Shown here piece after piece: positions 6,175-36,176 of a stretch of 64,000 nucleotides of DNA. Position 1 is the stretch's first letter, and the number at the start of each line of letters is the position of its first letter. The position numbers were made by a program, and so were the translations under genes. Source of the stretch: Flammula alnicola (lineage: Eukaryota; Basidiomycota; Agaricomycetes; Agaricales; Strophariaceae); the NCBI GenBank assembly GCA_015499995.1, contig JADNRV010000149.1:62001-126000 (forward strand), written 5' to 3'. The notes under the pieces were generated by a model. That model was given only the letters and a program-made list of their open reading frames with translations. It did no database searches and was not told where the DNA came from.

Positions 6175-6259
6175 TCGTCCTACTATTGGATCCGCGCTTA
6201 ATACTTCATCTGCACCTCCTGCGCTCAAATGCACGTTTTGCGGTATGTCCAATCACCCA
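6175..6259 (+). pseudogene. Ty1/copia gag fragment, first half of a CCHC zinc knuckle
   Basis: Eighty-five bases of copia sequence are left between LINE P1 and chimera C1. Translation gives ...ALKCTFCGMSNHP, the first part of a CX2CX4HX4C knuckle. The remaining residues (QDKC) are found at 10886 after the C1 insertion, which proves that 6175-6259 and 10871 onward are one element. The last 15 bases (6245-6259, ATGTCCAATCACCCA) are the left copy of the C1 target duplication. Confidence 0.88.
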
Positions 6260-6268
6260 GGGGCGTGG

Positions 6269-6338
6269 TGGCTTAGCGGTTACTGCGTTGCCTTTAAGGG
6301 TGGCTGTGCACCATCCGAGAGGTTGTGGGTTCGATTCC
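6269..6338 (+). promoter_or_regulatory. tRNA-like pol III promoter of C1 (box A and box B)
   Basis: Box A TGGCTTAGCGG lies at 6269-6279 and box B GGTTCGATTCC at 6328-6338, an exact consensus B box. Box A starts about 10 nt into the element, as in tRNA genes. The 48-nt gap fits a class II tRNA (long variable arm). The head does not fold as a clean functional tRNA gene that I can read. Confidence 0.8.
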
Positions 6339-7345
6339 TGCACATAGCAAGTACCATAAGCTTGTGACCGGGGTTCCATTCCGTGGAATGCTGATGTAAT
6401 TCGTCTGCCGTTGGGCGCGTTGTCGGTGTATCGTGGTCTAAGGGCTTCGGCGGACCACTGCGGTCACCTTTGGGCGACATGGGGGAATACTTTGGAGCTG
6501 GCATAAATCGTCTGCCATGTTGTGGGGCGTAGCAGGTGCACCGTGGGACGGTCTCCTCGCTGTAGTGAGCAATGGCCTAAGGGCTGCCGCAGGGGTTGGG
6601 CACGATGAGCGCTGTGTAGGCCTACGTCGACAGTGCAGAGTGTCCGGGGTCCAAGCGATTCCGCGGAATGCTGATGTAAATCGACCCTGGCCCATTTGGG
6701 ATCGTCGCTCGGCCTTATAGGTCGGTAAGTCGGCCAGGCTCGGGCAAAGCCGTATTGGGGCACCTCGGATAGCAGCCCGTAAAGGGTCCGAAAGGATAGG
6801 GCACGGTAAGAACCGGGAATTGGGCTGATAACAACCCGACCATGGGTAGACCACCGGCATTGTGATCCGGGTTTCGGTTGCATACCCACCAGCAGATAAC
6901 GCACTGCTTGGATGTGGGAGGCCTGTGGGCTGTCCAGGTGGGGCGCCGTTCGGCAAGGACAGGGCACCCGGCACGTCGCAATAGAGTAGTGAGCGGCGTC
7001 GTTAGTCGCGAGTCTAAATGGCTTATCTCCCGGTTGCCATGTGGGAGGCTATGTGGGCTGTGGCATGTGAAGCACAACTGGGTTTGGATCGCGGCAAGAC
7101 AGTGACTCTGGACAGGATTGGGGATCCGCGCCGAAAGGCATTAGCGAACCACCTGCCAGGGGACGGGAATGTACGGCTGGGGGTAGCGCCCTGGTGTCGG
7201 CTGGGCCGTAGCGGTACTCGGATAGTCCCCTTGTACTGGCTCGACAGATCTATATCCACTGTCGCTCGATTGGGCATAATAAGTTCCAATTCGGGTTAAG
7301 TTGAAGCGGCAATGTTGGGGGAGTGGCATTAAGATCGCCTCCAAT

Positions 7346-7369
7346 CGGTCTCCCCGCAAGGGGGGCCTA
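7346..7369 (+). other. 3'-terminal stem-loop of the C1 module (GCAA tetraloop)
   Basis: GGTC-TCCCC-GCAA-GGGGG-GCC forms a stem closed by a GNRA loop, followed by TAAA and then the LINE-P junction at about 7373. The equivalent hairpin sits at the same relative place in C2 (8694-8719), C3 (27669-27694) and C4 (32463-32489). Confidence 0.72.
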
Positions 7370-7690
7370 AATTGCGCACTCATCGTGCAAGATGAGTGGC
7401 TGGATAGTAATGTTGCGATGCTCAAGAAAGCATACGCTGTTATCTTTGAGCTATTCAAGGCATTTGCTTTGGCGCTCGAGCACGACAAGTCTGAGATCTT
7501 TCATTTTGATAGATCTCACTCTAGTTATAATCCTAGTATCAATCTCGGGTATGCACCCTACACCGGAGATCGTGCTAACTACCTCAAGCCCAAGCCGTTT
7601 TGGCGGTACCTGGGCTTTTACTTTGACCGCAAGCTCACATTCAATGAGCATGTGCGTTATTACTCCACCAAGGGATTCACAGGGCCACAG

Positions 7691-7766
7691 TAGCCCAGTG
7701 GTCTCGATCACTAAAGACCTGTTGAGGTGGCTGTGCAGCTGCTGGAAAGGTTGCGGGTTCGATTCC
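7691..7766 (+). promoter_or_regulatory. tRNA-like pol III promoter of C2 (box A and box B)
   Basis: Box A TAGCCCAGTGG lies at 7691-7701, a perfect match to TRGCNNAGYNGG. Box B GGTTCGATTCC lies at 7756-7766. The head differs from that of C1, C3 and C4 while the downstream body is related, so the family may have taken its promoter from two tRNA sources. Confidence 0.8.
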
Positions 7767-8693
7767 TGCTCACCCCTTCTACCTGATTACAAAGGAAGGA
7801 GTTTGTGACAAACAGTTGGTTACTGTCACAATCGGTACTGTATTCGGTAAACGGATACAGGACTAAGGCTGGTCGTCATGATCCTCCGGCCGTGTGGGAT
7901 GCGGATCTCCGGGCCTGGCAAGCCTACGGCATATCGGGGGGAACGATCACCGTACCCCAAATTGGCAGGCTTGATACACCTGTCGTACCCATTGCGGGAG
8001 CGAAAGCACAGGGGGCAGTAAGCGGGGGTAGTTATATTTAGAACAAGCCGAATGTCCTGAGAAGGGCCAGGCCACCCTCCACCGCTGAAGACCGGTCCAG
8101 CGCCAACTGGCATAAACTGAGTCGGATGGTTGTTAGTCAGCATCGAAGGGCAGGGTCGATCTGCAAGCTGTAAAGTGCGGCATCGTTGGTGGCCTCTACC
8201 AGGGTCACTCAATGGTTGGGCGAATAGTCCGGGGACCATGAACCGCCTTACTGGGAGGCCGTAGGGGTTAGCCCCGGGCCGTTGCAGACACTCCGGGGGG
8301 TATCTCCGCAAGGCTGGCCCCTTGGACCGAGCATACCAATAGGGAAGGTAGCCCGAAATAACTCCATGCCGAGACTTGTCTGTCGGATCAGTTCTCGGAT
8401 GCACAACATGGTTGGTTGCTGGCAAGACAGAGAGTGGGGACAGATGGGGATCCGCGCCGATTGGCTTAAGCGAACCAGCTGCCCTGCAACGGGAAACCGA
8501 GTACTCGGGGCTCTATATGAACTCCCCGGGGAGACGCGAGCCGTAGCGGGCCAGGGCAGTCCCCTGCGACCCGGCTCGAGTAGAGCACTAAATCCTCTGT
8601 CGGTTCACCTGGCTGATTAAGCCAGGTATTGAGTCTAAGTTGATTCCGGGTACCAGCGCAAGCTGGCGTCTGCCCCGCAAGGGCGCAAGATGG

Positions 8694-8719
8694 TAGGGCT
8701 TCCCTTCGGGGGGGCCCTA
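8694..8719 (+). other. 3'-terminal stem-loop of C2 (TTCG tetraloop)
   Basis: TAGGGC pairs with GCCCTA around an inner CCC-TTCG-GGG stem-loop. The outer stem is identical to that of C4 (TAGGGC/GCCCTA), while the loop is of the UUCG type here and GCAA (GNRA type) in C1, C3 and C4. Both are exceptionally stable tetraloop classes. Confidence 0.72.
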
Positions 8720-8734
8720 TAGCTCGTAAATTGT

Positions 8735-8770
<36 letters not shown>

Positions 8771-10832
8771 AAGGGATTCACATCGGTTGTTTCGATGAAG
8801 ATGCTTGGCTCCTCCACTCGGGGGCTTTTGCCTATGCAGAAGCGCCTCCTTTACCGCACATGTGTGGTCCCCATATTCACGTATGGGTACCGCATGTGGT
8901 TCTTCAGGGGTGCCCGCAACAAGGGCCTCATTAAACAGCTTACGCAAGTCCAGCGTAAGGCTGCTCTCTGGATTACGGGTGCATTCCGTACTTCGCCTTC
9001 GGGAGGGGTGGAGGCCCTTGCGGGCCTCCTACCCATCCCTATATTTCTCGAAAGATTGCGCGACCGCTCTGCAGTGCGGGTCGCCACTCTTTCGGACACT
9101 CATCCGATCCGGTCGTTTATGACCGGATCATCACTTAAGCGCGCAACTCCCCACCCTATGTCGGTTGAACGCATGCCTGCCGCCCATCGCCGTAAGGTGA
9201 CGGGTGCTCTTATGGATAATGTCAATTACTCCAATGTCCCTGTCGAGTCCACGGAGCCCTTTGCTCCTGAGGCTCGGCCGGGTTATCGAATCCTCGATCG
9301 CTATGCCGATCGGTTCAAGTGGCTTTCCAAGCCTCGCTTTAGCAGGTCCGAAGATCCTGAAGCGGCTTGGAAGCTTATCCTGGATGCGTCTCTCGAGTCT
9401 CTCGAGGACGATCCAGACGCTGCATACGCTGGTGTTGACGGCTCCTGCCCTCCGGGGTGGCAAGCCGCCACTGGTGTTGTTATCAAGCGGCAGGGCGCGC
9501 AGGTTTATTCTGGGTGTCATGCTGCCGGGAGGGCCTCGTCTACGGATGCAGAGCTCTTTGCTATTCGCGTAGCCATCTCCAATGCCGTTGGCTTTGGGGA
9601 TGTCAAACACGTTACTATTTTCACTGATGCGATGCATGCCGCGCGCCTCTCGGTGGATCCCTCGCCGCACTCCTTTCAGTCTCAGTCACTGATGGTGTGT
9701 CGTATACTTGAACCATGGTTCAGGCGCTCGCCTGACCATAAGGTTACCTTTATCGAGTCCCCCTCTGATATGGAGTGGGACATTCAGAATGAAGCACACG
9801 ATCTCATTGCTGGTATGCGCGGTGTTGCCGTCGTTCCTACCACCAAGTTATCTCTCCAGTATGTCTGCGATTTCGTGGACAAATCGGCACGCGCAGATTG
9901 GAAACAAAGAGTTTCCGATCAGCCATTCCTGCTTGGCTCCAACTTTATGGAGCTGCAAGGGTTGAACGGTGACCCTGTCCAGCCTAGTCCCACTCGCGGG
10001 GGACCTTGGCTTGAAGCCGGCAGTCAGAGCGTTTCGCTCTTTGCCCGCATGTGCCGTTTAATTACGAATCATGCGCTGATCGGCTCGTACTACGAGCGGT
10101 TCAAAATTGATGACCCTAGGGCCCTCGGTTGTGAGTGTGGGGTTTATCCTCACACCCGCGATCATATATTCAAGTGCAAGAAACAGCCTTGGACTCGCCG
10201 GAAGCCGAAACTTGTTTCGGAGCTGGCGACTTATCTGTTGGAGCACCCTACGGCGTTCTCCTTCTCCCGGCATCCCGCTGGAGTCGGATGAGGGACTCTG
10301 GGAGGAGGGCAATCCTGATCGCGGAGTGGGCCGCGGTCAAATCTACTTCACTACCCGTGATGTGTTTCCGTTTGGCGGCGGCGAAGTTCCGCAAGTGCCT
10401 AGGGCTCTGGTCGTCCCAGGGCCGGTGGCGTCGACTCTCTGAGCCGGTGTCATGCGCCGCTGACGGAGGACCCAGTTCGGTGGACGGCGGTGGGGGCTTC
10501 GGCTCCTGCTTAGCTATTACAACGTGAATTTTACCGTTGAACCGGGGAGGGTCTGGCAGGCTCTCTTCGCTTTCGGGTGACCCCTCTTCCCATCCCAACA
10601 CTCCTATCTGCCGTTCGTGCGGTAGCGTTAACAACGCCGCAACGACGGACAATCTGTGGTTGCGAGACTACCTATCTGGGTTTCAGGCGGCTGCGCCGTC
10701 TCACCCGCGCCGCGCTCGCGCGCGTCGCATGCTCGCCGTCGAGCCAACTTCTTTCTTTTGCACGCGTAGTATACCGCCTTCGTTTGTATTAGTTAGAGAC
10801 CGGACTGCTTTCGTGCACCGGTATAAAATTGT

Positions 10833-10870
<38 letters not shown>

Positions 10871-10873
<3 letters not shown>

Positions 10874-13311
10874 TCCAATCACCCACAAGACAAGTGCAAC
10901 CGCTTTATCAAAGCGCAGCAGAACGCGCAGGAGAGCGTGCGAGAATATCGCAAGAAGGGCAGAAAAGCGAACAAAGCGCAAGAGACCACTCCAAAGTCCG
11001 AGGAGAATGTTACAGAGTATGCTGGAAATGCGAGTGCTCTCTCTACCTATGATCCATCCACATTGCAGAGTGATGCTGACTTCCATTGGCTTGCAGATAC
11101 AGGGGCCACTTCTCATATGACCCCTCATCGTCACTGGGTGCGCAATTACACGCCATATCGCGTCCCAGTCAAGCTAGCAGATCACACAATCATCTACTTT
11201 GCAGGTATTGGTACTGTGTTGTTCAGTCCCATTATCAATGGAAAGGAATCTCGTTCTGTAGAGTTAACAAGAGTCTTGCATGTACCCCAACTCCGAAATA
11301 ACTTATTGGCCTGTCTTTATCTCACAAAGCGCAAACACATCAAACTGGAAGTTGATGAGACTACCATGTACTTTAAACGCGCTCAAAAGACACTATTTAC
11401 AGCCACAGTGACTTCGGAGAACACAGGTGTACTTGATGGTGTTACTGAGCCTATTCCGGAGTTTGCCAATGTCTCTGCCACTCTGCCATTTGATTTAAAC
11501 CTCTGGCATCGTCGCCTTGGCCACCATAGCTACGACGCGATTCAGAAACTGCTCAAGGGCGAGTTGGTGACTGGACTTGTGCTTGACTCCAAGTTGCAAC
11601 CAGATCCTATTTGTGAACCATGTCTCGCAGGCAAAATGACGTCCAATCCATTCCCAACCTCCCATAGTCATTCTACTACTCCACTAGAATTGATTCACAC
11701 TGATCTCCATGGTCCTCTTCCTGTTCCTACTCCAGAAGGTTACCGTTACTGGGTGACCTTCATTGATGACTGCACCAAGCTTCGCGCTGTAATGCTGTTA
11801 AAACGGAAGAGTGACACATTTGACGCATTCAAGACGTTTAAAGCACATGCTGAAAACCAATTGAATTGCAAGATCAAGTCTATGCAGGATGACAAGGGTG
11901 GTGAATTTATGTCTAATGCTTTTATTCACTTTACGGATCAATGTGGCATTGTGCGACGCCATACTACGCGTAATCGCCCCCAACAGAACGGAGTTGCAGA
12001 GCGAGCAAACCGCACTATTGCGGATCATGTTACTGCTATGCTCAATGAAGCGCACCTTCCTGCATCGTTCTGGGCGCACGCTTTGGCTGCATATATACAT
12101 GTCTGGAATCGACTTCCTACTGCACCTCTGCCTAATACTACTCCGTATGCAGAATGGTACAAGAAGAAACCAGATGTGAGCCATTTGCGCGTTTGGGGCT
12201 GCACTGCATATGTCTACATTCAAAGAGACAAACGCAAGTCGCTTCAGCCACACATGGAGAAGTGCATCTTTGTTGGTTACCCTGCTGGTTACAAGGGTTG
12301 GCAGTTCTACAACCCTGCCACAAAGAAGTTTGTTATCTCTGAACGTGCTGTGTTTCATGAGCGTCACTTCCCTGGCATTGCTGGCTCTGGCCCACTCGCC
12401 AAAAATGCTCTTATGCCAATTGGCACACCTTTGGAACCGGAGACTGCTCCTTTTGTGCCGGAAATCGGGGGGGATGATGATGATGATAATGTGATTCCTC
12501 CTGCGCAAATTCCGCGTCCTGCTGTTATTCCTGCTCCACCCGCACCTCCTGACGCACCTGATGCTCTTCCTGAGCCGCCCGTCGTACCTCCTATTCTAGA
12601 ACCGCCTCCTGCACCTGCATCTCGCACTCCAACACCACCACCACAGCCTAGACGCTCTATGCGTATTTCTAAGCAACCTGGTGAATGGTGGAAAGTCACA
12701 CCTGCTCCGCCACCTCCAGTTGAGGAAGACGATGATGCAGCTGATGATGAAGGTCTTGAGTATGTGCAATTTGCTGGTGCTGCGTCGACTTCAGATCCTC
12801 GCAACTACAGGCAGGCAATGAAGGGCGACGATGCGGACAAGTGGCGTGATGCTGCAAATGCAGAGTACAATACTTTGCTTCAGAATGGCACTTGGGAGTT
12901 AGTTGATCTCCCACCTGGAGAAAAGGCTATTGGCTCTGGTTGGGTGTTTAAAGTCAAACACAATGTGGACAAAAAAAAAAAAAAGAACCTTGAACTGCGC
13001 TCTGTTGACATTTCAGCTGCTTTTACCAATAGTGACCTAGATGAGTGGATATACATGATGCAACCTGAAGGTTTCCACCAAGGTGGACCTAATATGGTTT
13101 GCAGACTCCGAAAATCCCTCTATGGTCTCAAGCAGTCTGCGCGTCAATGGAATATCAAGTTGCATGCTGCTCTCACTGAGATGGGCTTCAAACGCGTTGA
13201 ATCTGACCGCTCTGTCTATATCTACTCTAATGGACAGGTCAAGATCTTTGTGCCCATTTACATTGATGACATTACCTTTGCATCCAAGTCCACTGCAGCT
13301 GTTGACAATGC
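10871..13311 (+). pseudogene. Ty1/copia gag-pol: end of gag, protease, integrase, N-terminal part of RT
   Basis: One open frame continues from the knuckle interrupted at 6259. It carries the aspartic protease (WLADTGATSHM, about 11085), the GAG-pre-integrase motif (LWHRRLGHHSYD, about 11500) and the integrase core (HTDLHGPL, IKSMQDDKGGEF, NGVAERANRTI; about 11690-12020). A Pro-rich linker (about 12420-12720) leads to the copia reverse transcriptase (GTWELVDLPPGEKAIGSGW, then SLYGLKQSARQW and PIYIDDI). At 12971-12984 an A14 tract replaces the RT segment that normally contains the YKARLVAKGF-like motif, so a piece of RT appears deleted in frame. The copy is cut at 13311 by LINE P2. The frame runs on into LINE 5' UTR, and those last residues are not copia. 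Confidence 0.9.
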
Positions 13312-13630
13312 CATCTCTCCTTTTCCAGTAACTACTACGGTCGACCGTGGGAACAACTTCAGCAACCAGCAACATCGTCCCCCACTGCTTCACACCGTCG
13401 AGCGCTCTTGGGCGCTCCGTTACTAGCAAGCAATGCCGCCCAAAACCAATCCGAATCCCAAAGGTGGTGGCGATCGATCTACCCGATCGCCCGCCACACC
13501 TGCTCTTGTCGATCCGCTGGCTGGTTTATCCCCAGCGGAGAGACTCGCTGTTCAGCAGGCCGCCCTCGCAAGGCTGGCCCCCTCTACCACTGCGTCTGTT
13601 TAGGCAGCGCAGTCTACTGCATCTCCCTCC

Positions 13631-13634
<4 letters not shown>

Positions 13635-13670
<36 letters not shown>

Positions 13671-16600
13671 ACAATTTTTATTCCGAAGCACGATCGCAGC
13701 TCGGACTCTAACTAATACAAACGAGTACGCTACAATACCCAATGCAAAAGAAAGAAATTGGTCGCTCGCAGGGGAGCGTGCGGCGCGCGCGAGCGCGACG
13801 CGGGCGAGACTGCACTGCAGCCTGAAACCCAAATAGCGGACCTCGCAGCCCAGGAAATACAAACGCGCGGCGTTGTTAACGCTACCAAACGTAAGGTAGA
13901 TATGGATTAAAAGGGTGGACAGGGGGGTCACCCAGATGAAGTCGGAGCTTGCCCGGCTCTCCCCACTTCGTTGGCAAACTCGACGTTGTCGTTACACCAT
14001 GGCGGGTCCTCCAAGTGATGCGTGCCATAGACTCAGAGAGTCACAGGCGAAGCCATGCAACGAACACGGCTGCGGCCCTCGCGGGATTTGTCACACCACA
14101 ATGGAAACACCTTTGGGCACTAGGTCTTGGGCCAAGGCCCCAACGACACCTAGGATCACCCCCCGTCCAGAGTCCCTCATCCGACTCCGGCCTGGGGCCG
14201 ATTGAACGCAAACGCACTAGGGTTGTCGCTCAAAAATTTCTCAAGACCCCATACTAGGTACGGGGCCCTGTGAGGTAGCATCAAGAGCTTGGGGCACTTG
14301 AAAATATGTGCACGAGTCTGTGGATATTTCCCGCACACGCACCCGAGAGCCAACGGGTCGTCGATTTTGAACCGCTCGTAGTACGAGCCGATCGGAGCAT
14401 GATTCGTTATTACACGGCACATGCGGGCGAACAACTGAGAGTTGCGGCCGCCGACTTCAAGCCACGGCCCGCCGCGAACGGGGGTCGGACGGAGAGGATT
14501 ACCCTTTAGATCCTCTAACTCCAAGAAACTGGAGCCAAGTAAATTAGGAACCTCGTCGACCTCTGTCGACCAGGCCTCCCGCGCTGCAGTGTCAGCTTTG
14601 TTCTTAAGCCAAGCGATAGATAAAGGGGTGTTCGGTGTAACAGGTACACCCGGAAACCCCAGGACGAGGTCATGAGCCTCTTGATGAATGTCCCACTCCA
14701 TATCGGAGGGAGACTCTGCAAAAACGACTTTCCGGTTCCCACCACCTTGGAACCATCGTTCAAGTGTCCTACATACTATCAGAGATGAACCCTGATGAGA
14801 ATGCGGGGAAGGATCAACGGCCATTCGAGCAGCATGCATCGAATCCGTGAAAATAACTATCCTGGTGGCGTCTCCGAACGCTACCATTGCAGAGATGGCC
14901 ACCGAGATGGCATCGAGCTCAGCGTCAGTGCTTATTGCCCGTCCGGAAGAATGGCATCTGGCCAAAACCAGCGCACCCTGCCGTTTGATAACAATGCCGT
15001 TGGCGGCCTGCCAGGGCCCCGGAGGGACCGAGCCGTCGACACCAGCATATGCGGTACCTGGCTCATCGTCACATTTTTCGATGAGTTTGTCCAGGATGAT
15101 CTTCCACGCAGCATCAGGGTCTTCAGCCCTGCTGATACGGGGTTTATCCATCCATGTAAACCGGCTCGCATGCCGGTCCATCAGACGATATCCAGGCCTG
15201 GCGTCTGGAGCAAAAGGCTCCAGCTCCTCCAGACCAGCGGGGTGGAACAATGTATTGCCCACAAGTCCTCCACGCAACTTTTCCCGTTGACGCTCGGTAA
15301 AATTCTCAATCGCCATCTTGTGAGGAGTGGCTTTCTTAAGTAAAGGACCAGCCATAAATGACCGGACCGGGTGGGTATCAGACAAGAGAGAGATCCGGGC
15401 CACCGCCCGAGAGTTCAACCTGTCCAGAAGTAAGGGCATGGGCAGAAGGCCGGCAAGGGCCTCGACGCCATACGAGGGAGAAGTGCGGAAGCACCCAGTA
15501 ATCCAAAGCCCAGCCTTACGCTGAACGTTGGTAAGTTGCGCAATAAGCCCTTTATTTCGAGCCTTGCGGAAATACCACATGCGGTAACCATAAGTAATTA
15601 TGGGGATAACGCACGTGCGGTAGAGGAGGCGCTTAAGATGCGGCGGCAGCCCTCTGGTAGAAGACCCAAGCATTCTCATCGATACGACCGATGTGAACCC
15701 CTTGGTGGAATAATATCTCACATGCTCCTTAAAAGTGAGCTTGCGATCAAAATAAAACCCAAGATATCGCCAGAACGGCTTAGGCTTGAGCCATTTGCCT
15801 GCAGTATAGGGTTCTTCACCCAAATCAATGGCAGGGTTATAAACTGAAGCAGTGTTGTCGAAGTGAAAAATCTCCGACTTCGCGTGCTCCAGAGCGAGAG
15901 CGAACTTGGTAAAGAGCTCAAATATAATCTTGTAAGCCTTACGAAGGTTTACAACATTGGGATCGAGTCCGGTCTCCTGAGAAATCAAGGTACCATCGTC
16001 CACATATGACAGAAGGTCAACCGCAAGATGAATCTCACGGCACCTCTTGTAGAAAAGACGCATGATAGGCGCCAAGTAAATGGCCGACAAGACAGGGGAC
16101 AGGGCTCTGCCCTGTCCCACGCCCACATCTGCCTGCAGAGGGTCTGACAGGAAGGAATTCCACGCATACTGCGTCTTCCTTTCCACCAGATAAGAGCTGA
16201 AAAACTTGACCACCAGCGGTGGAAAGCCAAGCTTCCGAAGAATGATCACAAGAACCTCGTGATTAAGAGAAGGAAAGAACTGAGCAAGGTCAAAGGCAAG
16301 GACGCTAGTCCTCAACCCTCTAGCCCACCCAGCCCTCACCATGTGTGTCAAAAACAGACCCGCATCCTCGGTGGAGCGTCCCCTGACGCCACCAACCTGA
16401 TTCGGGTGAAATATATCCTGTCCGACAGCATCGAACTGGATGCGATTCGAGATCATCTTCTCGATGAGTTTCCCCACGGTGTTCAGAAGCACAATAGGCC
16501 TGAACGCCTTGGGGTAGAGTACGAGGGCTTGCCGGGCTTGGGGATAATAACCGACATAGACTCCTTAAAGGGCGACGGCCAATGACCCACACGCATGCAG

Positions 16601-16792
16601 GCATTAGCAATCGAGATAAGGACCTCCACAGAGTGAGGGTCCCGACGTACAATCTTCTTCAGGTGGGACCAATTGACATGATCCGGACCCGGAGAAGAAA
16701 GACCGGAACACGCAGAAAGAGCTTCCGTGAGTTCCAGCGGGGAGAAGGGAGCCCATTCCCGAACAGGAAGTTGCGGGATGGACTCCAAGAGA
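13635..16792 (-). mobile_element. LINE-Q copy Q1, 5'-truncated
   Basis: Inserted in P2 ORF1 with the 16-bp duplication GCATCTCCCTCCCCTC (13619-13634 and 16793-16808). On the minus strand it runs from a truncated 5' end in the EN-RT linker, through RT and RNase H, to a 3' UTR and a poly(T)-facing tail at 13635-13664. LINE-Q is clearly related to LINE-P throughout ORF2 but diverged in sequence. Its 3' UTR nevertheless ends in the same GTATTAGTTAGAG...TTGTTGATTT(A)n as LINE-P. Confidence 0.92.
14177..16788 (-). pseudogene. LINE-Q ORF2 (RT, RNase H, Cys/His tail), one frameshift
   Basis: The first frame covers 16788-16483 (RT N-terminal region, VREWAPFSPLELTEALSAC). A single-base loss near 16510 (PSYS-TPRRS instead of PSYSAPKAFRP) shifts the frame, and the protein continues to 14177 as one 771-residue frame. 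Visible motifs are FDLAQFFPSLNH and SYVDDGTLIS (RT catalytic Asp pair) and RNase H AYAGVDGSVPPG, DAELDAISV and FTDSMHAA. The C-terminal motif is CVCGKYPQTRAHIFKC. The endonuclease is absent through 5' truncation. Apart from the one indel, the reading frame is clean, so this family was active fairly recently. Confidence 0.88.
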
Positions 16793-18722: not shown

Positions 18723-19457
18723 TAACGAATCATGCTCCGATCGGCTCGTACTACGAGCGGTTCAAAATCGACGACCCGTTGGCTCTCGGGTGCGTGTGCG
18801 GGAAATATCCACAGACTCGTGCACATATTTTCAAGTGCCCCAAGCTCTTGATGCTACCTCACAGGGCCCCGTACCTAGTATGGGGTCTTGAGAAATTTTT
18901 GAGCGACAACCCTAGTGCGTTTGCGTTCAATCGGCCCCAGGCCGGAGTCGGATGAGGGACTCTGGACGGGGGGTGATCCTAGGTGTCGTCGGGGCCTTGG
19001 CCCAAGACTGCCCGCAGGTGTTTTCATTATGGTGCGATAAATCCCGCGAGGGCCGCAGCCGTGTTCGTTACATGGCTTCGCTTGTGACTCTCTGAGTCTA
19101 TGGCACACATCATTTGGAGGACCCGCCATGGTGTAACGACAACGTCGAGTTTGCCAACGAAGTGGGGAGAGCCGGGCAAGCTCCGACTTCATCTGGGTGA
19201 CCCCCCTGTCCACCCTTTTAATCCATATCTACCTTACGTTTGGTAGCGTTAACAACGCCGCGCGTTTGTATTTCCTGGGCTGCGAGGTCCGCTATTTGGG
19301 TTTCAGGCTGCAGTGCAGTCTCGCCCGCGTCGCGCTCGCGCGCGCCGCACGCTCCCCTGCGAGTGACCAATTTCTTTCTTTTGCATTGGGTATTGTAGCG
19401 TACTCGTTTGTATTAGTTAGAGTCCGAGCTGCGATCGTGCTTCGGAATAAAAATTGT

Positions 19458-19488
<31 letters not shown>
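18723..19488 (+). mobile_element. LINE-Q copy Q2, short 5'-truncated 3' end
   Basis: Flanked by ACTATCAACTTGTA (18709-18722 and 19489-19502) in the P2 endonuclease. It contains only the last 77 codons of LINE-Q ORF2 (ITNHAPIGSYYERF...CVCGKYPQTRAHIFKC..., stop at 18953-18955), the whole 3' UTR and a poly(A) at 19463-19488. The 3' UTR matches that of Q1. It is a typical dead-on-arrival LINE insertion. Confidence 0.9.
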
Positions 19489-19489
<1 letters not shown>

Positions 19490-22400: not shown

Positions 22401-22688
22401 TCGAGGACGATCCAGACGCTGCATACGCTGGTGTTGACGGCTCCTGCCCTCCGGGGTGGCAAGCTGCCACTGGTGTTGTTATCAAACGGCAGGGGGCACA
22501 GGTTTACTCTGGGTGTCATGCTGCCAGGAGGGCCTCGTCTACGGACGCAGAGCTCTTTGCTATTCGCGTTGCCATCTCCAATGCCGTGGGTTTTGGGGAT
22601 GTCAAACATATTACTGTTTTCACTGACGCGATGCATGCCGCTCGCCTCTCAGTGGATCCCTCTCCGCACTCCTTCCAGTCGCAGTCAC

Positions 22689-22719
<31 letters not shown>

Positions 22720-25700: not shown

Positions 25701-26432
25701 AAGACCTCAACCGAATGAGGGTCGCGACGTACTATCCCCTTCAGGTGGGACCAATTGATATGATCCGGACCCGGAGCGGATAGACCAGAACACGCAGAGA
25801 GAGCCTCCGTGAGTTCCAGCGCAGAGAAGCGAACCCACTCCCTAACAGGAAGCGTAGGGAGAGAGTTCAACAAATTAGCATCAAACACTCTGTCAGACGC
25901 AGAGTTGTAGGTACCGTGGAGCGCGTCCCAAAGGGCGGGCATGTCGTTGCAAGGCTCGCCACGGTAATGGAGAGCCTCACAGGGAGGGAGTTTGCGCTGT
26001 TGGACCCAATTCATGAGGTCCCACGGGCGCTTGTTAGCAGACGCGATTTCATGGATCCGTTGATCAAAGAATTCGCGCTTGACATCTCGGATGACTTTCC
26101 GAAAGGATTTCCAGTCCTCGGGCAGGCGACTGCGCCGGAACGTGCCAAGGGCGTCTGAGCACTCCTGGGTCCACCAGGGCTTAGATCGCCGGGTAACAAA
26201 GGACTCTTTAGCATGGGAGTCCCATGCAGAAGAGAAGACCAAAGCCACCGCTTGCGCAGCAGCCTCGATCTGTTCCTCGGTGTTAAGAGGGGCAGTCGGG
26301 TCGATAGCCCGAAGCCCCGAGCTTATAGAATTGATGAATGCCGGAACATCATCAGTAGGAAGAGACATCCGAACCGCCCCTAACGGGGCGGGAGAGATGT
26401 CCAGTGTGATCGAAATCGGAATAGGGGCGTGG

Positions 26433-26502
26433 TGGCTTAGTGGTTACTGCGTTGCCCTTAAGGGTGGCTGTGTACCATCCGAGACGTTGGGGGTTCGATT
26501 CC
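26433..26502 (+). promoter_or_regulatory. tRNA-like pol III promoter of C3 (box A and box B)
   Basis: Box A TGGCTTAGTGG (26433-26443) and box B GGTTCGATTCC (26492-26502), with the same spacing as in C1 and C4. GGGGG/CCCCC flank the B-box loop as in a tRNA T arm (GGGGG-TTCGATT-CCCCC). Confidence 0.82.
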
Positions 26503-27668
26503 CCCAGATTCACATACGATAATTGTGGTCCGTGGGATCGTTCCGCGGGTCGCTGATGTAAGTCGCGCTCCATGTTGGGTTCGCTGTTGGCTGCTCGTAG
26601 GGCGGGACCCTCGGCAATCCACTGTAGTCCCGTTGAGGGCTTGTGGCGCCGCCTTGTAGGACCCTTTGTGTAAATCGTCTGCCATGTTGTGGGCGTGTCG
26701 GGGGCTGCAGGCCGTTCCGTGCCTTAGGGCGCAAGGGCGCGATGCCGCTACAGGGGACGGGCACAATGACCACCTCGCAGGCCTACGTCGGGGGCTGGGA
26801 GTGTCCGGGGTCCAACCAATTCCGCGGAATGTTGACATAAGTCGACCGATGCAAAGCCGTATGGCCGATGTAAGCCGACCCTGGCCTTCGGGCAAAGCCG
26901 CTACGGTTCTGTAAATCGACCCTGGCTGAGGCTCGCTGTTGGCCCGTGGGAACCCCGCAAGGGGCCGAAAGGATAGGACACGATAAGATTGGGGGAATCG
27001 GGCGAAAACCATCCGACCATGGGGAGTTCCGGGGTGAATCCCGGATCAATGATCCAGCCCGGGTTTCAACAACCCGGGGCAGTGACAGGATACCCAACAC
27101 GGCAAGTAGATGTGGATGCCGTCGTTAGTCGTTTGAAACGTACTCCCGGCTCCACGGCTGGGTAGAGTTTCAGGGCAAGACAGTGACTCCGGACAGGATT
27201 GGGGATCCGCGCCCTTCTGGGCTGAAGCGAACCACCTGCCGGGGGACGGGAAGTTCGGCCTGGGAGTAACACGCCTAGGAGTCACCGGATGGGCCGTGGC
27301 ATGGTCGGGGCAGTCCCCTTACCTTGGCCCGAGAGATCAAATCCACTGTCGGTTCACATGGGCATAATAGACTCCTGTGGGCTTAAGTTGTAGCCGGGGT
27401 GTTGGTGGGCTTACGTCGGCATGCCGACTGATGGATTGGGGACGGAATATATCGAACTCGAAAATGAACAGACCTAATAGGAAGGCGGGATGAGTAGCCG
27501 GTGCAGCCGACCTCCCTTGCCGTGTAAGCCGGAGGTGACTAGTATCCGCAGCACCTACTAGGCAGGTCCCCAAAGTGGGGCCGTTGATGGACCCCGAGTT
27601 CTGATTCATCCGATGGTTGAGTAGGTAGGGTAATAACTCCCTACTGAAATCCCGAAGTAGCCCGCCAA

Positions 27669-27694
27669 TAGGCCTCTCCGCAAGGAGGGGCCTA
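27669..27694 (+). other. 3'-terminal stem-loop of the C3 module (GCAA tetraloop)
   Basis: TAGGCC-T-CTCC-GCAA-GGAG-G-GGCCTA: the inner stem has become CTCC/GGAG where C4 has CCCC/GGGG, and the outer stem TAGGCC/GGCCTA where C4 has TAGGGC/GCCCTA. Both changes keep pairing. Confidence 0.75.
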
Positions 27695-28180
27695 AACTTC
27701 GGTGATGTGTTTCCGTGTGGCGGCGGCGAAGTTCCGCAAGTGCCTAGGGCCCTGGTCGTTCCAGGGCCGGTGGCGTCGACTCTCTGAGCCGGCGTCATGC
27801 GCCGCTGACGGAGGACCCAGTTCGGTGGACGGCGGTGGGGGCTTCGGCTCTTGCTTAGCTATTACAATGTTAATTTTACCGTTGAACCGGGGAGGGTCTG
27901 GCAGGCTCTCTTCACTTTCGGGTGACCCCTCTTCCCATCCCAATACTCCTATCTGCCGTTCGTGCGGTAGCGTTAACAACGCTGCAACGACGGACAATCT
28001 GTAGTTGCGAGACTACCTATCTGGGTTTCAGGCGGCTGTGCCGTCTCACCCGCGCCGCGCTCGCGCGCGTCGCATGCTCGCCGTCGAGCTAATTTCTTCC
28101 TTTTGCACGCGTAGTATACCGCCTTCGTTTGTATTAGTTAGAGACCGGACTGCGTTCGTGCACCGGTATAAAATTGTTGA

Positions 28181-28211
<31 letters not shown>

Positions 28212-29790
28212 TCGAAATCGGAATATGGTCCGATTTGAGTTGAATGTCTGGGCATCGGACAACAGTACCGTCAATCACCTGGTTGGGTGGGACGAAAGCG
28301 AGATCGATCACTGTTTTGCGCTTGGTGGGATCTCTTGGTATGTGCGTGGGCCCTGGGTTGCCAAAAGCAGCCAGTTCAAGCCCAAGAATAGCAGCGGACT
28401 GCTGCAGTGAGAGAGCGCATCCCTCCCGACCACTGTGACCTGGGTCCCAGTCCTCGGCGTGTGCGTTGAAGTCCCCGCCCATGAAATGGAAACGAGGAAG
28501 TGCAGTGTCGTGGGCCTTGAGCCAATTAATGGCCCCATGGTCCGCGTCAGAATAGACGTTCATCAAAAAGAAGGTCTCGGCACTTGTTGAGAGTGACAGG
28601 ACCTGTATATCGGGGTGATCGATCACATCCCTTCGTACAGACGGACGATACCGGGCCAGCCTAGTCGAAACGTAGGTCATAACCCGGGGTCGCTCATCAG
28701 CGGTAGTGGGTGCACGGACCATTGCCAGCCAATCTGGGTGGTTCGGTGCACCTATGACATCCTCGCCCTTTCTGGTTTTAGCAGACGGGGCGGTCCTTAT
28801 GTGTCGCCAAGGGGGTTCTTGAACGAATATAATATCATAAATGTTGGTACAAGTAGATAGAATTACATCCAGGGACATCCCGTCCCTGGCCACGTTCCAA
28901 CTCAACACTCGCACCTCATCCAGCATGGGTCGTACTGGCATTAAGCTACGTTATGTGAGCGATGGGTGGGACGACGATTTAACGAGAAATCACGTACCTC
29001 AGCATATTTAGCTTCGATCCAAGGACGGACGAAGCGGTGCGATCGGCTCGTACTACGAGCGGTTCAAAATCGATGACCCTAGGGCCCTCGGTTGTGAGTG
29101 TGGGGTTTATCCTCAGACTCGCGATCATATTTTCAAGTGCAAAAAGCAGCCTTGGACTCGCCGGAAGCCGAAACTTGTTTCGGAGCTGGCGACTTATCTG
29201 TTGGAGCACCCTACGGCGTTCTCCTTCCCCCGGCACCCCGCTGGAGTCGGATGAGGGACTTTGGGTGGGGGGCAATTCTGGGTGCGAGCGGCGCCGCGGT
29301 CAAAGCGGCCTGTTGCCCACAGGTGTTTCTGCATTGAGTCACAGTGATGGCGGACTTCGCGAGAGGCGAGAGGGCTGGTCGTTCCAGTCCTGGCGGGGTC
29401 GACTCCCTGAGTTGGCTTCGTGCATCACTTGCAGAGGACCCGACCTGGTTGACGGCGGTGGGGGCCTCGGCCCCTGCTTAGCTATGACCACGTTGATTTT
29501 ACCGGTGAATCGGGGAGGGCCTGGCAGGCTCTTCTCACATCTGGATGACCCTCCTGTCCATCCCAATATTCCTATCTGCCGTTCGTGCGGTAGCGTTAAC
29601 AACGCCGCAACGTCGGACAATCTGTAGTTGCGAGACTACCTATCTGGGTTTCAGGCGGCTGCGCCGTCTCACCTGCACGTCGCATGCTCGCCGTCGAGCC
29701 AACTTCTTTCTTTTGCACGCGTAGTATACCGCCTTCGTTTGTATTATTAGTTAGAGACCGGACTGCTTTCGTGCACCGGTATAAAATTGA

Positions 29791-29832
<42 letters not shown>

Positions 29833-29843
29833 GTTGACAATGC

Positions 29844-30161
29844 GGTCAAGCAACTTGCTCAGCACTTCAAATGTCGCGATCTCGGACCCACTGAGTTTCT
29901 ACTTGGTGTTGCAGTCACTAGAGATCGCCAGAAGCATCTTGTGTCGCTCCATCAGCGCCAATTCATTCTGGACATGCTTGAGCGCTACAGTATGACTGAT
30001 TTGCACCCTGTCCTCACTCCCATTGCACCTGGCACTGTCTTGTCCAAAGAGATGGGTCCTCAGAATGCCGCAGAAGTGGAAGCTATGCGCAATACTCCTT
30101 ACCTCAGTGCTATTGGGTCTTTGCAGTATTTGGCTATTATGACTCGCCCAGATATTGCGCA
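29844..30161 (+). pseudogene. Ty1/copia RT C-terminal part (between P2 and P4)
   Basis: This continues the RT of 10871-13311 (AVDNAVKQLAQHFKCRDLGPTEFLLGV...) through MLERYSMTDLHPVLTP to the copia motif YLSAIGSLQYLAIMTRPDIA, where P4 enters. The junction codons match the other side at 36177 (HAVSYLARF). This is the RT connection region leading to RNase H. Confidence 0.9.
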
Positions 30162-32462
30162 TTTTTTTTTCTTTTTTTGTTTTTTTTTAAATCAACAGTT
30201 TATATTCCGGTGCACGAAAGCAGTCCGGTCTCTAACTAATACAAACGAAGGCGGTATACTACGCGTGCAAAAGAAAGAAGTTGGCTTGACGGCGAGCATG
30301 TGACGCGCGGGTGAGACGGCGCAGCCGCCTGAAACCCAGATAGGTAGTCTCGCAACTACAGATTGTCTGTCGTTGCGGCGTTGTTAACGCTACCGCACGA
30401 ACGGCAGATAAGAGTGTTGGGATGGGAAGGGGGGGTCACCCGAAAGTGAAGAGAGCCTGCCAGACTCTCCCCGGTTCAACGGTAAAATTTACGTTGTAAT
30501 AGCTAAGCAGGAGCCGAAGCCCCCACCGCCGTCCACCGAACTGGGTCCTTCATCGACGGCCATGACGCCAGCTCAGAGAGTCGACGCCACCGGCCCTGGG
30601 ACGACCAGGGCCCTAGGCACTTGCGGAACTTCGCCGCCGCCAAATGGAAACACATCACGAGTAGTCGAGTAGATTTGACTGCGTGTCACTCCACGATCAG
30701 GATCGCCCCCCACCCGAAGTCCCTCATCCGACTCCAGCTGGGTGCCGGGAGAAGGAGAACGCCGTAGGGTGCTCCAACAGATACGTCGCCAGCTCCGAAA
30801 CAAGTTTCGGCTTCCGGCGAGTCCAAGGCTGTTTCTTGCACTTGAATATATGATCGCGAGTCTGAGGATAAACCCCACACTCACAACCAAGGCCCTAGGG
30901 TCATCGATTTTGAACCGCTCGTAGTACGAGCCGATCGGCGCATGATCCGTAATTAAACGGCACATGCGGGCAAAGAGCGAAACACTCTGACTGCCGGCTT
31001 CAAGCCAGGGTCCCCCGCGAGTGGGACTAGGCTGGACAGGGTCTCCGTTCAACCCTTGCAGCTCCATAAAGTTGGAGCCAAGCAGGAATGGCTGATCGGA
31101 AACTCTTTGTTTCCAATCTGCGTGTGCGGATTTGTTCACAAAATTGCGAACATACTGGAGAGAGAGTTTGGTGGTAGGAACGACGGCAGCGCCACGCATA
31201 CCAGCAACGAGATCGTGTGCTTCATTTTGGACGCCCCACTCCATATCAGAGGGAGACTCGATAAACGTAACCTTATGGTCCGGCGAACGCCTGAACCAAG
31301 GTTCAAGTGTACGACACACCATCAGCGACTGAGACTGAAAGGAGTGCGGAGAGGGATCCACTGAGAGGCGCGCGGCATGCATCGCATCAGTGAAAATAGT
31401 AACGCGTTTGACATCCCCAAAGCCAATGGCATTGGAGACGGCAACGCGAATAGCAAAGAGCTCTGCATCCGTAGACGAGGCCCTCCCGGCAGCATGACAC
31501 CCAGAATAAACCTGTGCGCCCTGCTGTTTGATAACAACGCCGGTGGCGGCCTGCCACTCCGGAGGGCAGGAGCCGTCAACACCAGCGTATGCAGCGTCTG
31601 GATCATCCTCGACAGATTCGAGGGACGCATCCAAGATAAGCTTCCAAGCTGCTTCAGGATCTGGGGACCTGCTAAAGCGTGGCTTGGCAAGCCACTTGAA
31701 CTGATCGGCATACTGATCGAGGATTCGATAACCCGGACGAGCCTCAGGAGCAAAAGGCTCCGTAGACTCGACAGGGACATTGGAGTAATTGACATTATCC
31801 ATAAGAGCACCCGTCACCTTACGGCGATGGGCGGCAGGCATGCGTTCAACCGACATGGGGTGGGGGGTTGCGCGCTTAAGTGATGATCCGGACATGAATG
31901 ATCGGATCGGATGAGTGTCCGAAAGAGTGGCGACCCGCACCGTAGAGCGGTCGCGCAATCTTTCGAGAAGTATAGGGATGGGTAGGAGGCCCTTTTTTTT
32001 TTTTTTTTTTTTATATCAACAGTTTATATTCTGAAACTCGAACGCAGCTCGGACTCTAACTAATACAAACGAGTACGCTACAATACCCAATGCAAAAGAA
32101 AGAAATTGGTCGCTCGCAGGGGAGCGTGCGGCGCGCGCGAGCGCGACGCGGGCGAGACTGCGCAGCAGCCTGAAACCCAAATGATGTACCTCGCAGCCCA
32201 GGAAATACAAACGCGCGGCGTTGTTAACGCTACCGAACGTAAGGTAGATATGGATTAAAAGGGTGGACAGGGGGGTCACCCAGATGAAGTCAGAGCTTGC
32301 CCGGCTCTCCCCACTTCGTTGGCAAACTCGACGTTGTCGTTACACCATGGCGGGTCCTCCAAATGATGCGTGCAATAGACTCATAGAGTCACAAGCGAAG
32401 CCATGCAATGAACACGGCTGCGGCCCTCGCGGGATTTATCGCTCATAATGGAAACCGAAGTT

Positions 32463-32489
32463 TAGGGCCCCCCTTGCGGGGAGCCCTAT
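32463..32489 (-). other. 3'-terminal stem-loop of the C4 module (GCAA tetraloop)
   Basis: On the minus strand: TAGGGC-T-CCCC-GCAA-GGGG-G-GCCCTA, the cleanest version of the family hairpin, followed by AACTTCGG and the switch to LINE-Q sequence. Confidence 0.75.
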
Positions 32490-33598
32490 TGGCGCGAACC
32501 TCGGGATTTCAGCGGGGATTAGAACCCCGCTTACTCAACCAACGACCAGCTTTATCCGTCGAACTCCACCCAGTCGGTCGACCTTCACTCAGAAGGCCTT
32601 CCTATATGGTGCTGCTCCTTTTTTAGGGGCGTCTTACACGGCACCAGGGTCGGCTTACACTCGAGCTACGGCTTTGCCCTAGGGCCAGGGTCGATTTACG
32701 TCTCAAGCTACGGCTTTGCACCTCCCATATGGGTAACTGAACTCGGCCTGACTGCCTTCTTTCAGATTACCCGCGATCACGCGCCAACACCCCGGCTTCA
32801 ACTTAAGCCCGAACACGGTTATATTATACCGGGTCAGACCGACAGAGGATATAGATCTCTCGAGCCAGGTTAGAGGGACTGCCTCAGCCTGCTACGGCCC
32901 AGCCGACACCGGGCGCTACCCCGGCCGTACCTTCCCGTCCCCTGGCATACGGTTCGTTTACACCTATGTCGCACAGCCCACAGGCCTCCCACATGCAACG
33001 GCGGCACGGATCCCCAGTATGTCCAGAGTCTCTGTCTTGCAGGAGGCGCCCCGGCTGTGCGGCCGGGGAGAACAGACTCCTACTAACGACTGGGTCCACA
33101 TAATTCCCAGCGTCGGGTGTCCTGTCCCAGGTTTCGGCTGAGGTCCCTCGCGGGGAGCCTAGCCCGGGTCGGATGGTTCTCAGGCCTATACCCGATATCT
33201 TATCGTGCCTTATCCTTTCGGCCCCTTGCGGGGTACTATCCTTGGCGCTCAACCTTAGTCAGCATTCCGCAGAATCGTTTAGGCCCCCGGACACTCCCAC
33301 CACAGCCCACAAGCCTCCCACATGGTATTCACTGTGCCCACCCCCTGCGGCAGCCCTTAGGCCATTGCTCCCTACAGCGAGGAGACCGTCCCACGGTGCA
33401 CCTGCTACGCCCCACAACATGGCGGACGATTTATGCCAGCTCCAAAGTATGCCCCCATGTCGCCCAACGGGGACCGCAGTGGTCCGCCCAGACCCTTAGA
33501 CCACGATACACCGACAATGCGCCCAACGGCAGACGAATTACATCAGCATTCCACGGAATGGAACCCAGGTCACAAGCTTATGGTACTTGCTATGTGCA

Positions 33599-33668
33599 GG
33601 AATCGAACCCACAACCTCTCGGATGGTGCACAGCCACCCTTAAGGGCAACGCAGTAACCGCTAAGCCA
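33599..33668 (-). promoter_or_regulatory. tRNA-like pol III promoter of C4 (box A and box B)
   Basis: On the minus strand, box A TGGCTTAGCGG is at 33668-33658 and box B GGTTCGATTCC at 33609-33599. Both are identical to those of C1. Confidence 0.8.
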
Positions 33669-36176
33669 CCACGCCCCCTATGGGTAGGAGGCCCGCAAGG
33701 GCCTCAACCCCTCCCGAAGGCGAAGTACGGAATGCACCCGTAATCCAAAGAGCAGCCTTACGCTGGACTTGCGTAAGCTGTTTAATGAGGCCCTTGTTGC
33801 GGGCGCCCTTGAAAAACCACATGCGATACCCATACGTGAATATGGGGATTACACATGTGCGATATAGGAGGCGCTTCTGCATAGGCAGGAGACCCCGAGT
33901 AGAAGACCCAAGCATCCGCATCGATACAACCGATGTGAACCCCTTGGTGGAGTAGTACCGAACATGCTCATTGAAGGTGAGCTTGTGATCGAAATAGAAA
34001 CCTAGGTACCGCCAAAACGGCTTGGGCTTGAGGTAATTAGCCCGATCTCCAGTGTAAGGTGCATACCCGAGATCGATGCTGGGATTATAGTAAGCGTGGG
34101 ACCTATCGAAATGATAGATCTCAGACTTGTCGTGCTCGAGCGCCAAAGCAAAAGCCTTGAACAGCTCGAAGATAACAGCGTATGCCTTCTTGAGCATCGC
34201 AATATTATGATCCAGCCACTCATCCTGAACAATGAGCGTGCCATCATCAACATACGAGAGGAGGTCAACCCTCAACCCAAGGTCGAGGCACCGCTTCTCG
34301 AACATGCACATAATAGGCGCCAGGTAGATAGCCGGCAAGACAGGGGACAAGGCCGATCCCTGGCCCACCCCCATGTCTGCCTGTAGTGGATCTGACAAAA
34401 AGGAATTCCACGCATATTGCGTCTTCCTTTCTACCAGATAAGATGCGAAAAACTTGACCACCAACGGAGGGAAGCCAAGTTTCCGAAGAATAATCACAAG
34501 CGCCTCGTGATTAAGTGAAGGGAAAAACTGAGCGAGATCAAAAGCGACCACGCTAGTCTTCAAACCCTTAGCCCAGCCTGCATGCACAATGTGCATGAGG
34601 AAGAGCCCAGCATCCTCAGTGGAGCGCTGACGCACGCCACCCACCTGGTTAGGATGGAAAATATCCAGCCTGACAGCGTCGAACTGAATGCGGTTGGAGA
34701 TCATTTTCTCGATCAATTTACCAATGGTATTCAGGAGCACAATGGGCCTGAATGCCTTCGGTGCAGAGTAGGATGGCTTATTCGGCTTGGGTATAATTAC
34801 CGAAAGTGAATCCTTAAATACCGATGGCCAATAGCCCACACGCATGCAGGCATTGGCAATCGAGAGGAGGACCTCAACAGAATGAGGGTCGCGACGTACT
34901 ATCCCCTTCAGGTGGGACCAATTGACATGATCCGGACCCGGAGCAGACAGACCGGAACATGCAGAGAGAGCCTCTGTGAGTTCCAGTGCGGAGAAACGAA
35001 TCCACTCCCTAACAGGCAAGGTGGGGAGAGAATTCAACAAATTGGCATCAAACACTCTGTCAGAGGCAGAGTTGTAGGTGCCGTGAAGTGCGTCCCAAAG
35101 GGCGGGCATGTCATTGCAATGCTTGCCACGATAATGGAGAGCCTCACAAGGAGGAAGTTTGCGCTGTTGGACCCAATTCATGAGGTCCCACGGGCGCTTG
35201 TTAGCAGATGTGATTTCATGGATCCGCTGATCAAAGAACTCGCGCTTGACATCTCGGACAGATTTCCGAAAAGATTTCTAATCCTCGGGCAGATGACTGC
35301 GCCGGAACATGTCAAGGGCGTCAGAGCACTCCTGGGTCCACCAGGGCTTAGATCGCTGGGTAACAAAGGACTCTTTAGCATGGGAATCCCATGCAGAAGA
35401 GAAGACAAAAGCCACCGCTTGCGCAGCAGCCTCGATCTGTTCCTCGGAGTTTAGAGGAGCAGCCGGGTCCATAGCCCGAAGCCTCGAACTAATAGAATTG
35501 ATGAACGCTGGAACATCATCAGTAGGAAGAGACATCCGAACCGCCCCATCAGGGGCGGGAGAGATGTCCAATGTAGTCGAAATCGGAATGTGGTCCGATT
35601 TGAGCTGAATGTCCGGGCATCGGACAGTAGTTCAGTCGATCACCTGGTTAGGTGGGACGAAAGCCAGATCGATCACCGTTTTGCATTTGGTGGGATCTCT
35701 TGGTATGTGTGTGGGCCCTGGGTTGCCAAAAGCAGCCAGTTCAAGCCCAAGAATAGCAGCGGACTGCTGCAGTGAGATAGCGCATCCCTCCCGACCACTG
35801 TGACCTTCGTCCCAGTCCTCGGAGAGTGCGTTAAAGTCCCCGCCCATGAAATGGAAGCGAGGGAGTGTAGTGTCATGGTTCTTGAGCCAATTAATGGCCC
35901 CATGATCTGCGTCAGAATAGACATTCATCAAAAAGAAGGTCTCAGCACTTGTTGAGAGTGACAGGACCTGTATATCGGGGTGATCAATCACATCCCTCCA
36001 TATAGATGGATGATACTGGGCTAGCCTAGTCGAAACATAGGTCATAACCCGGGGACGCTCATCGGCAGTAGTTGGTGCACGGACCATTGCCAGCCAATCT
36101 GGGTGGTTCGGTGCGCCTATGACATCCTCGCCCTTTCTGGTTTTAGCAGACGGGGCGGTCCTTCAGATATTGCGCA

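Follow-up and report, generated by a model that had tools for sequence, protein, structure and literature searches.

What decides where a mobile non-coding RNA is joined to the LINE (long interspersed nuclear element) with which it is found inserted? The question is raised by four insertions, C1 to C4, in a stretch of 64,000 nucleotides from the fungus Flammula alnicola (contig JADNRV010000149.1, positions 62,001 to 126,000; hereafter the window), each of which is a non-coding module with a tRNA-like head followed by LINE-derived sequence. The original prediction, made from this stretch alone, was that they belong to a parasitic RNA family that moves by repeated template jumping of a LINE reverse transcriptase. 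We ran module searches on the whole 74.4 Mb assembly that contains the window and find that the place of joining follows the pairing between the LINE and a triplet inside the module, and we consider it likely that this triplet guides the module RNA to the LINE RNA, to which it would be joined ahead of reverse transcription.

A fixed module end and a variable LINE start

The three modules used as queries matched at least 67, at least 42 and at least 61 pieces in the genome, and an exact pattern for the hairpin at the module 3′ end was present at 59 places (a control pattern at none). Four further ends deviate from the pattern (L011, L020 minus, L061 and L068), giving 63 module ends, and removal of four exact duplicates left 59 distinct records. 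In 58 of these the module end is followed by LINE-P, LINE-Q or a Q-like LINE about 77% alike to LINE-Q, at many positions, such that the predicted combination of a fixed module end with a varying LINE start is borne out. The remaining record, L066, runs into a SINE (short interspersed nuclear element). The last base of the module is a G in 54 of the 59 ends, and the joins aligned to the LINE (58 of 59) need no extra bases, with a few mismatches at the first base. Among the matches listed, the top named relatives of the LINEs come from agarics (Cyclocybe, Candolleomyces, Psilocybe), in line with the basidiomycete host of the original prediction.

The modules that behave in this way fall into lineages A, A′, A2, C3, C4 and C3/A hybrids, and end in CCTAAATTGCG, CCTAAATCGCG or CCTAAACTTCG with small changes. 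No fixed tail of their own that a LINE would recognise was found in lineages A, A2, C3 and C4, which sets them apart from SINEs. Alignment to unjoined LINE copies yielded 47 distinct junction contexts (L066 left out), and these show that many separate joins have taken place; neither a junction common to most copies nor separate target duplications for module and LINE part were found in the joining lineages. For all of them, the idea of a family without its own LINE tail that is re-joined again and again is thus supported, as is the expectation of at least two LINE partners.

The choice of partner differs between lineages: A and A′ are joined to LINE-P in 15 of 16 records, A2 to LINE-Q in 8 of 8 and C3 to LINE-Q in 9 of 11, while C4 is joined to LINE-P nine times and to LINE-Q seven times. 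In each of the 16 C4 records, the join falls within the initial part of the LINE 3′ untranslated region (LINE-P 6116-6156, LINE-Q 2651-2689). The three C3/A records (L063, L065, L067) are hybrid modules, with a C3 5′ half and an A/A2 3′ half, and all are joined to the third, Q-like LINE. One possible reason for the lineage preference is that different LINEs were active at different times.

All four elements in the window lie, as had been noted, each inside a single target duplication (15, 14, 15 and 15 bp for C1 to C4). Over the collected modules, with duplicates included, a duplication directly follows the A run in 27 of 44 composites and in 23 of 25 copies of the C2 type, compared with 1 of 214 and 1 of 119 when the flanks were swapped between copies. 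About half of the 17 composites without a duplication break off short of the LINE 3′ end (e.g., L015, L023, L060, L061, L063, L065, L067); L011, L018, L027 and L056 are examples that lack one yet are not truncated in this way.

The composite modules measure 1,003-1,279 bp and, as had been proposed, are homologous: representatives of the joining lineages are 66-94% alike, and the figure falls to 47-52% when they are compared with lineages B and B2, described below. Across 24 diverse sequences they share a core with 36 predicted pairs, in which 97.9% of cells are paired. Twelve pairs have changes on both sides (reached by 3 of 500 shuffles), the covariation score was reached by none of 500 shuffles with every slid version below half of it, and the predicted fold of the core is much stronger than that of alignments with shuffled columns (z −10, 60 shuffles); one of the five measures, further pair types, was unremarkable (41 of 500). 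No known structured RNA in Rfam scored above the gathering threshold in the module. Strings in the core reminiscent of group I intron elements R and S were discarded as a lead; the S-like string forms part of a separate hairpin that co-varies. When a chance open reading frame (ORF) of the module was used in a protein search, one match was obtained, in F. alnicola itself.

The module heads contain sequences that by eye resemble box A and box B, and ARAGORN called no tRNA in them. Transcription by RNA polymerase III (pol III) would fit such a head. The lack of TTTT in 60 of 69 module sequences is only suggestive of it and was rejected as proof, since shuffled sequences are expected to contain only about one TTTT (probability of none 0.15-0.41 per lineage) and AAAA is likewise scarce.

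An internal triplet is complementary to the LINE at the join

In the 47 contexts, LINE positions −3, −2 and −1 are constrained and +1 weakly so, and no comparable signal was seen at −4 and beyond. At −3 a G is found in 37 contexts, a C in 7 and an A in 3 (the exceptions to G being C4 and L070), and −1 is C in 29, T in 14 and A in 4. Position −2 depends on the lineage of the module, with C or T in 14 of 15 A and A′ contexts, A in 6 of 8 for A2, G in 9 of 9 for C3 and C or T in 8 of 8 for C4. Since A and A2 use different triplets in spite of identical 3′ ends, recognition must lie elsewhere in the module, and micro-homology between module end and LINE is rejected for the same reason. Recognition based on the ribosome was dropped on a partial check (by eye, the L013 site lies mid-codon, and the C4 sites lie beyond the ORF).

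A scan of the aligned consensus sequences for complements of these triplets (GGC, GUC, GCC and GGG/GGU in A, A2, C3 and C4) returned exactly one site, about 550 bases upstream of the module 3′ end. Here A reads GGC, A2 GUC, C3 GCC and C4 GGG, complementary to LINE −3 to −1, and the C3/A hybrids read UGC, which fits their GCA and GUA targets. In a scan copy by copy (34 junctions, 31 of them fully paired), this guide column was the best of 884, with 97% paired against 88% for the next, and when targets were shuffled among copies (300 shuffles) the mean was 68% and the maximum 75.5%. A combined table holds 51 distinct combinations of guide and junction, 45 of them with guide sequence. All three bases pair in 41 of these 45, where 3.6 would be expected from LINE sequence. 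The first LINE base to be retained, +1, pairs with the base just 5′ of the guide in 37 of 45 (22.0 expected); pairing at +2 is not significant (21 of 45, 16.3 expected). The two commonest guides also discriminate: GCC fits 9 of 9 of its own targets and 1 of 36 others, and GGC 14 of 16 and 1 of 29. Hence the template jumping without guidance of the original prediction is not supported in that form, because the join site tracks the pairing of an internal triplet with the LINE.

The same relation is seen within lineages, in three copies whose guide departs from that of the lineage and whose target departs with it (L056 AGG/CCU, L057 AGU/ACU, L067 GGC/GUC). Moreover, 11 predictions were written down before the guide windows were fetched, the targets being known (12 windows, one without a prediction). 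All nine guides that could be located fit, eight by pattern and that of L070 (G-GGG) by eye; the other two are L092, whose window contains the end of a LINE, and L093, whose window has no pattern match. Six of the nine are distinct combinations and three repeat a known guide and site.

For L077, G-GGU was predicted as opposed to the C-GGG of its lineage. The window CGGGUUAAAAACC contains G-GGU in the register given by the guide 3′ flank, and C-GGG one base earlier. Both L057 and L077 are one base longer between an upstream AAU and this flank, and both are joined one base earlier than their siblings (LINE-P 6147/6148 and 6155/6156), as if the position of the join were measured from the guide 3′ flank. 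MAFFT placed the AGU of L057 in the guide column; an automatic reading in another register lowers the count to 40 of 45. RNAalifold found the guide region weakly structured (z −2.2), so that we claim no structure for the guide loop.

The partner in L066 (L066:1283-1900) belongs to a second family of tRNA-headed SINEs and is not a LINE. Its five other copies (C72, C121, C859, C235 and C43), 98% alike over 617 bases, each start with GGGGCGCGGTGGCACAG beside a different flank. The join is best placed after the GGGGC at the SINE 5′ end, where the triplet GGC fits the C3 guide; the first retained base is A in L066 and G in the SINE copies.

Features of the four elements (positions in the window)
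Feature	Positions	Strand	Remarks
C1 target duplication, 5′ copy ATGTCCAATCACCCA	6245-6259	+	15 bp; 3′ copy 10871-10885
C1 module, lineage A: tRNA-like head, structured body, fixed end CCTAAATTGCG	6260-7376	+	
C1 guide triplet GGC	6823-6825	+	G at 6822 is the base opposite +1
C1 LINE-P part and poly(A), interrupted by C2	7377-10870	+	LINE target GCA^CAC
C2 module, lineage B, nested in C1, end ...CTATAGCTCG	7681-8726	+	
C2 fixed LINE-like tail TAAATTGTTGATTT and poly(A)	8727-8768	+	14-bp duplication ACCAAGGGATTCAC flanks both sides
C4 target duplication, 5′ copy	26409-26423	+	15 bp; 3′ copy 28211-28225
C4 module, end CCTAAACTTCG	26424-27701	+	
C4 guide triplet GGG	27000-27002	+	C at 26999 pairs with +1 G
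C4 LINE-P 3′ untranslated part and poly(A)	27702-28210	+	LINE target CCC^GTG
C3 module, end CCCTAAACTTCG	32456-33677	-	
C3 guide triplet GCC	33183-33185	-	minus-strand reading
C3 LINE-Q 3′ untranslated part and poly(A)	31993-32455	-	LINE target GGT^GTT
C3 target duplications	31978-31992 and 33680-33694		15 bp; two bases away from module start

The sequence that hosts C1 looks Copia-type by eye (window 10886-12000, protease/integrase-like reading).

Sister lineages with a fixed tail

SINEs with a tRNA-derived head and a tail derived from a LINE are a known class. Lineages B and B2, to which C2 belongs, resemble them in having a pol III-like head, a short LINE-like tail (AAATTGTTGATTT with small changes, followed by poly(A), in the 20 copies read) and target duplications (23 of 25). 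The B and B2 tails have 12 and 14 exact matches in the genome. C2 had been taken for an independent join to the extreme LINE 3′ end; this is not so, as B and B2 carry one fixed tail each. They are ordinary fixed-tail SINEs of unusual length (about 1.06-1.1 kb), unlike the usual ones in size and in having a structured core in common with the joining lineages. Three copies of a lineage D (L071-L073, of which L072 is diverged) have a LINE tail of some 40 bases in common. On the reading favoured below, B and B2 would have been freed from joining by the retention of one short LINE tail, and D probably likewise.

In L031 (C223:1221600-1222990), a B2 element apparently lies within a D-lineage module, and the flank of that module shows a GAGAAAACCACCC context resembling that of L070. 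At C534:288159-288883 and C170:5475-6585, pieces of lineage A modules directly abut pieces of lineage B, which are possible fusions of module to module.

Proposed guided joining and its alternatives

The reading that we favour as likely is a guide-directed joining of RNA to RNA, whether by intron-like reverse splicing or by guided cutting and ligation, followed by reverse transcription by the LINE. It is built on features that are read directly in the genome: the fixed module end, the varying LINE start, the target duplications, the rule relating guide and target including its changes within lineages, and the outcome of the predictions. The module RNA would be a mobile non-coding RNA without a tail on which the LINE machinery can start. 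Its internal guide of three to four nucleotides would pair with the LINE RNA, which would be opened within this short duplex, between −1 and +1, and the 3′-terminal G of the module would be joined to the downstream LINE piece, the same outcome as that of the first step of reverse splicing. Because the joined RNA has a LINE 3′ end, the LINE protein would copy it by ordinary target-primed reverse transcription, and a single insertion within a single target duplication would result. We infer that joining comes ahead of reverse transcription; its chemistry would be provided by the module RNA or by a host ligase, the module would be transcribed by pol III, and composite transcripts would be cut at the module end, releasing free module RNA again. 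By analogy, the joins resemble reverse splicing in lying inside a duplex, in the near-constant 3′ G, in the lack of extra bases and in a register that follows the loop.

Several observations weigh against this reading. Three to four base pairs are very few for a free RNA, and the pairing would equally be expected if the guide only positioned a jumping reverse transcriptase. Rfam gave no group I or II intron match for ten copies (E up to 5 for C1, C2 and C4 and up to 10 for the other seven). Four of 45 combinations miss: C1, whose guide mispairs at −1, and L014 (both GGC with GCA), L027 (GUC with GUU) and L058 (AGG with CCC), the last being a counter-example to the joint change of guide and target within a lineage. 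With guides GUC and GGU, many targets of other guides fit as well (9 of 37 and 16 of 44). Expressed as a z-score over columns, the guide column is only modestly ahead (3.1 against 2.6 for the runner-up), it was picked out with the junctions already seen, and only the 11 predicted windows are prospective, most of them repeating the lineage guide; guides being common to the copies of a lineage, the 45 pairs are not independent guides. The L070 guide was recognised by eye, the automatic match having pointed elsewhere, and L077 fits because the 3′-flank register was chosen; anchored on the upstream AAU, L057 and L077 both miss and 39 of 45 remain. The C4 joins cluster at the start of the LINE 3′ untranslated region, unexplained by the triplet, and a second determinant of their position is likely. 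Lastly, C4 copies with the same LINE-P junction have tails 95-97% alike, compared with 93-97.5% between junctions, and there re-use of the site and copying of a ready composite are not told apart.

An alternative that would account for the guide rule equally is a guided template jump, in which the guide holds the module 3′ end beside a paused LINE reverse transcriptase and no RNA is cut or joined. It needs only template switching by the LINE enzyme, which is the published reading of the MINE elements of Magnaporthe (PMC2104539). We nevertheless regard it as unlikely, because the join lies within the paired stretch (+1 paired in 37 of 45), so that the enzyme would have to copy a paired +1, because extra bases are not needed at the joins, and because a change of one base in the loop accompanies a shift of one base in the join in two copies.

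A different proposal is that a single chimera, or a small number of them, arose once and multiplied thereafter as composites. For B and B2, each with one common junction, this is right. In the joining lineages it could appeal to the C4 junctions shared at P6148, P6156 and Q2689 and to the LINE-P tails with the same junction, which are no less alike than copies should be, and for these LINE-P junctions it may hold. As a general account of A, A2, C3 and C4 it is rejected as highly improbable, given the 47 distinct contexts and C4 modules that do not group by junction: they are 96-99.5% alike whether or not the junction is shared (96.3-98.3% within a junction, mean 97.5% between junctions). At LINE-Q 2689, L054 has a tail no more than 81-82% like those of the other three copies, which are 93-97% alike among themselves, while the modules are 96-98% alike, so that this site has been used at least twice. 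L058, whose LINE piece ends early, is 81-94% like the other three over 320 bases.

A plain jump from LINE RNA to the module 3′ end at pausing motifs, as in the original prediction and the view of the MINE authors, fits the fixed module end, the variable LINE start and the target duplications, and is hardly credible unless the dependence between guide and target proves an artefact, as the triplets follow the module lineage and not the LINE partner (GGY in C3 with Q and, in the single copy L060, with P; CCY-type in C4 with both), single copies co-vary and the predicted guides were found.

Relation to known systems

Group I introns end in a 3′ G and have a U at target position −1. In the group II geometry of exon-binding site 1 (EBS1) and δ, an internal guide pairs with −1 and the bases upstream of it, and its 5′ neighbour with +1. 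The modules are like reverse-splicing introns of both groups in that an internal guide spans the join and the 3′ end is joined to the downstream part of the target. They are like group I in the terminal G (54 of 59) and unlike it in that −1 is mostly C (29 of 47) and no Rfam model matches; for these two reasons, the module is not filed as a group I or II intron. The pairing of −1 and +1 corresponds to EBS1/δ, an analogy and not a proof of kinship, and unlike group II introns the modules lack a group II ending and a domain V match. They differ from both groups in riding on LINE proteins.

MINE elements consist of WEIRD RNA and a 5′-truncated MGL LINE, joined at 28 sites in 33 elements, with a hot-spot rule GCC*A/U and the variants GTC and GCT in Table 3; the authors do not regard WEIRD as a transposable element and detected neither pairing nor micro-homology (PMC2104539). 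MINE and the present family have in common a full-length non-coding RNA of about 1.1 kb, variable LINE 3′ parts, one target duplication around both and one SINE partner. The MINE motif is the choice expected of a GGC guide if G.U pairs are allowed, in 17 of 18 representative rows of that table. The present family, compared with WEIRD by the latter's description, differs in having several lineages, a guide that changes with its target, a tRNA-like head and sister lineages that bear tails. A more far-reaching version of guided joining may be offered tentatively: the module might be an unclassified ribozyme that releases itself by cutting at its 3′ G, finds by its guide a four-nucleotide site in the RNA of a LINE or of a LINE-dependent SINE and splices itself on, to be copied by the LINE; mutation of the guide would retarget it, WEIRD would act in the same way and the class would span fungi.

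A further parallel is found in U6/LINE-1 chimeras, for which RNA ligation and template switching have both been proposed (PMC13174262, PMC4476161). There too a small RNA sits on a variably truncated LINE in sense orientation within one duplication. U6 is a host RNA, and no guide/target rule figures in the accounts of these chimeras that were available to us, whereas here the joined RNA is a mobile family.

Within the titles and abstract openings of a non-exhaustive literature search, no guide rule for the attachment of an RNA to a helper RNA is described. If guided joining holds true, this would be, to our knowledge, the first retroelement whose RNA picks its attachment site on a helper RNA by base pairing. 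The question of whether LINE chimeras arise by ligation or by template switching would become directly testable, and, as a prediction, the GCC motif of MINE elements would find its explanation in such a guide. Finally, lineages B and B2, and probably D, suggest a route by which SINE tails may be born, namely that a joined LINE end is kept as a fixed tail.

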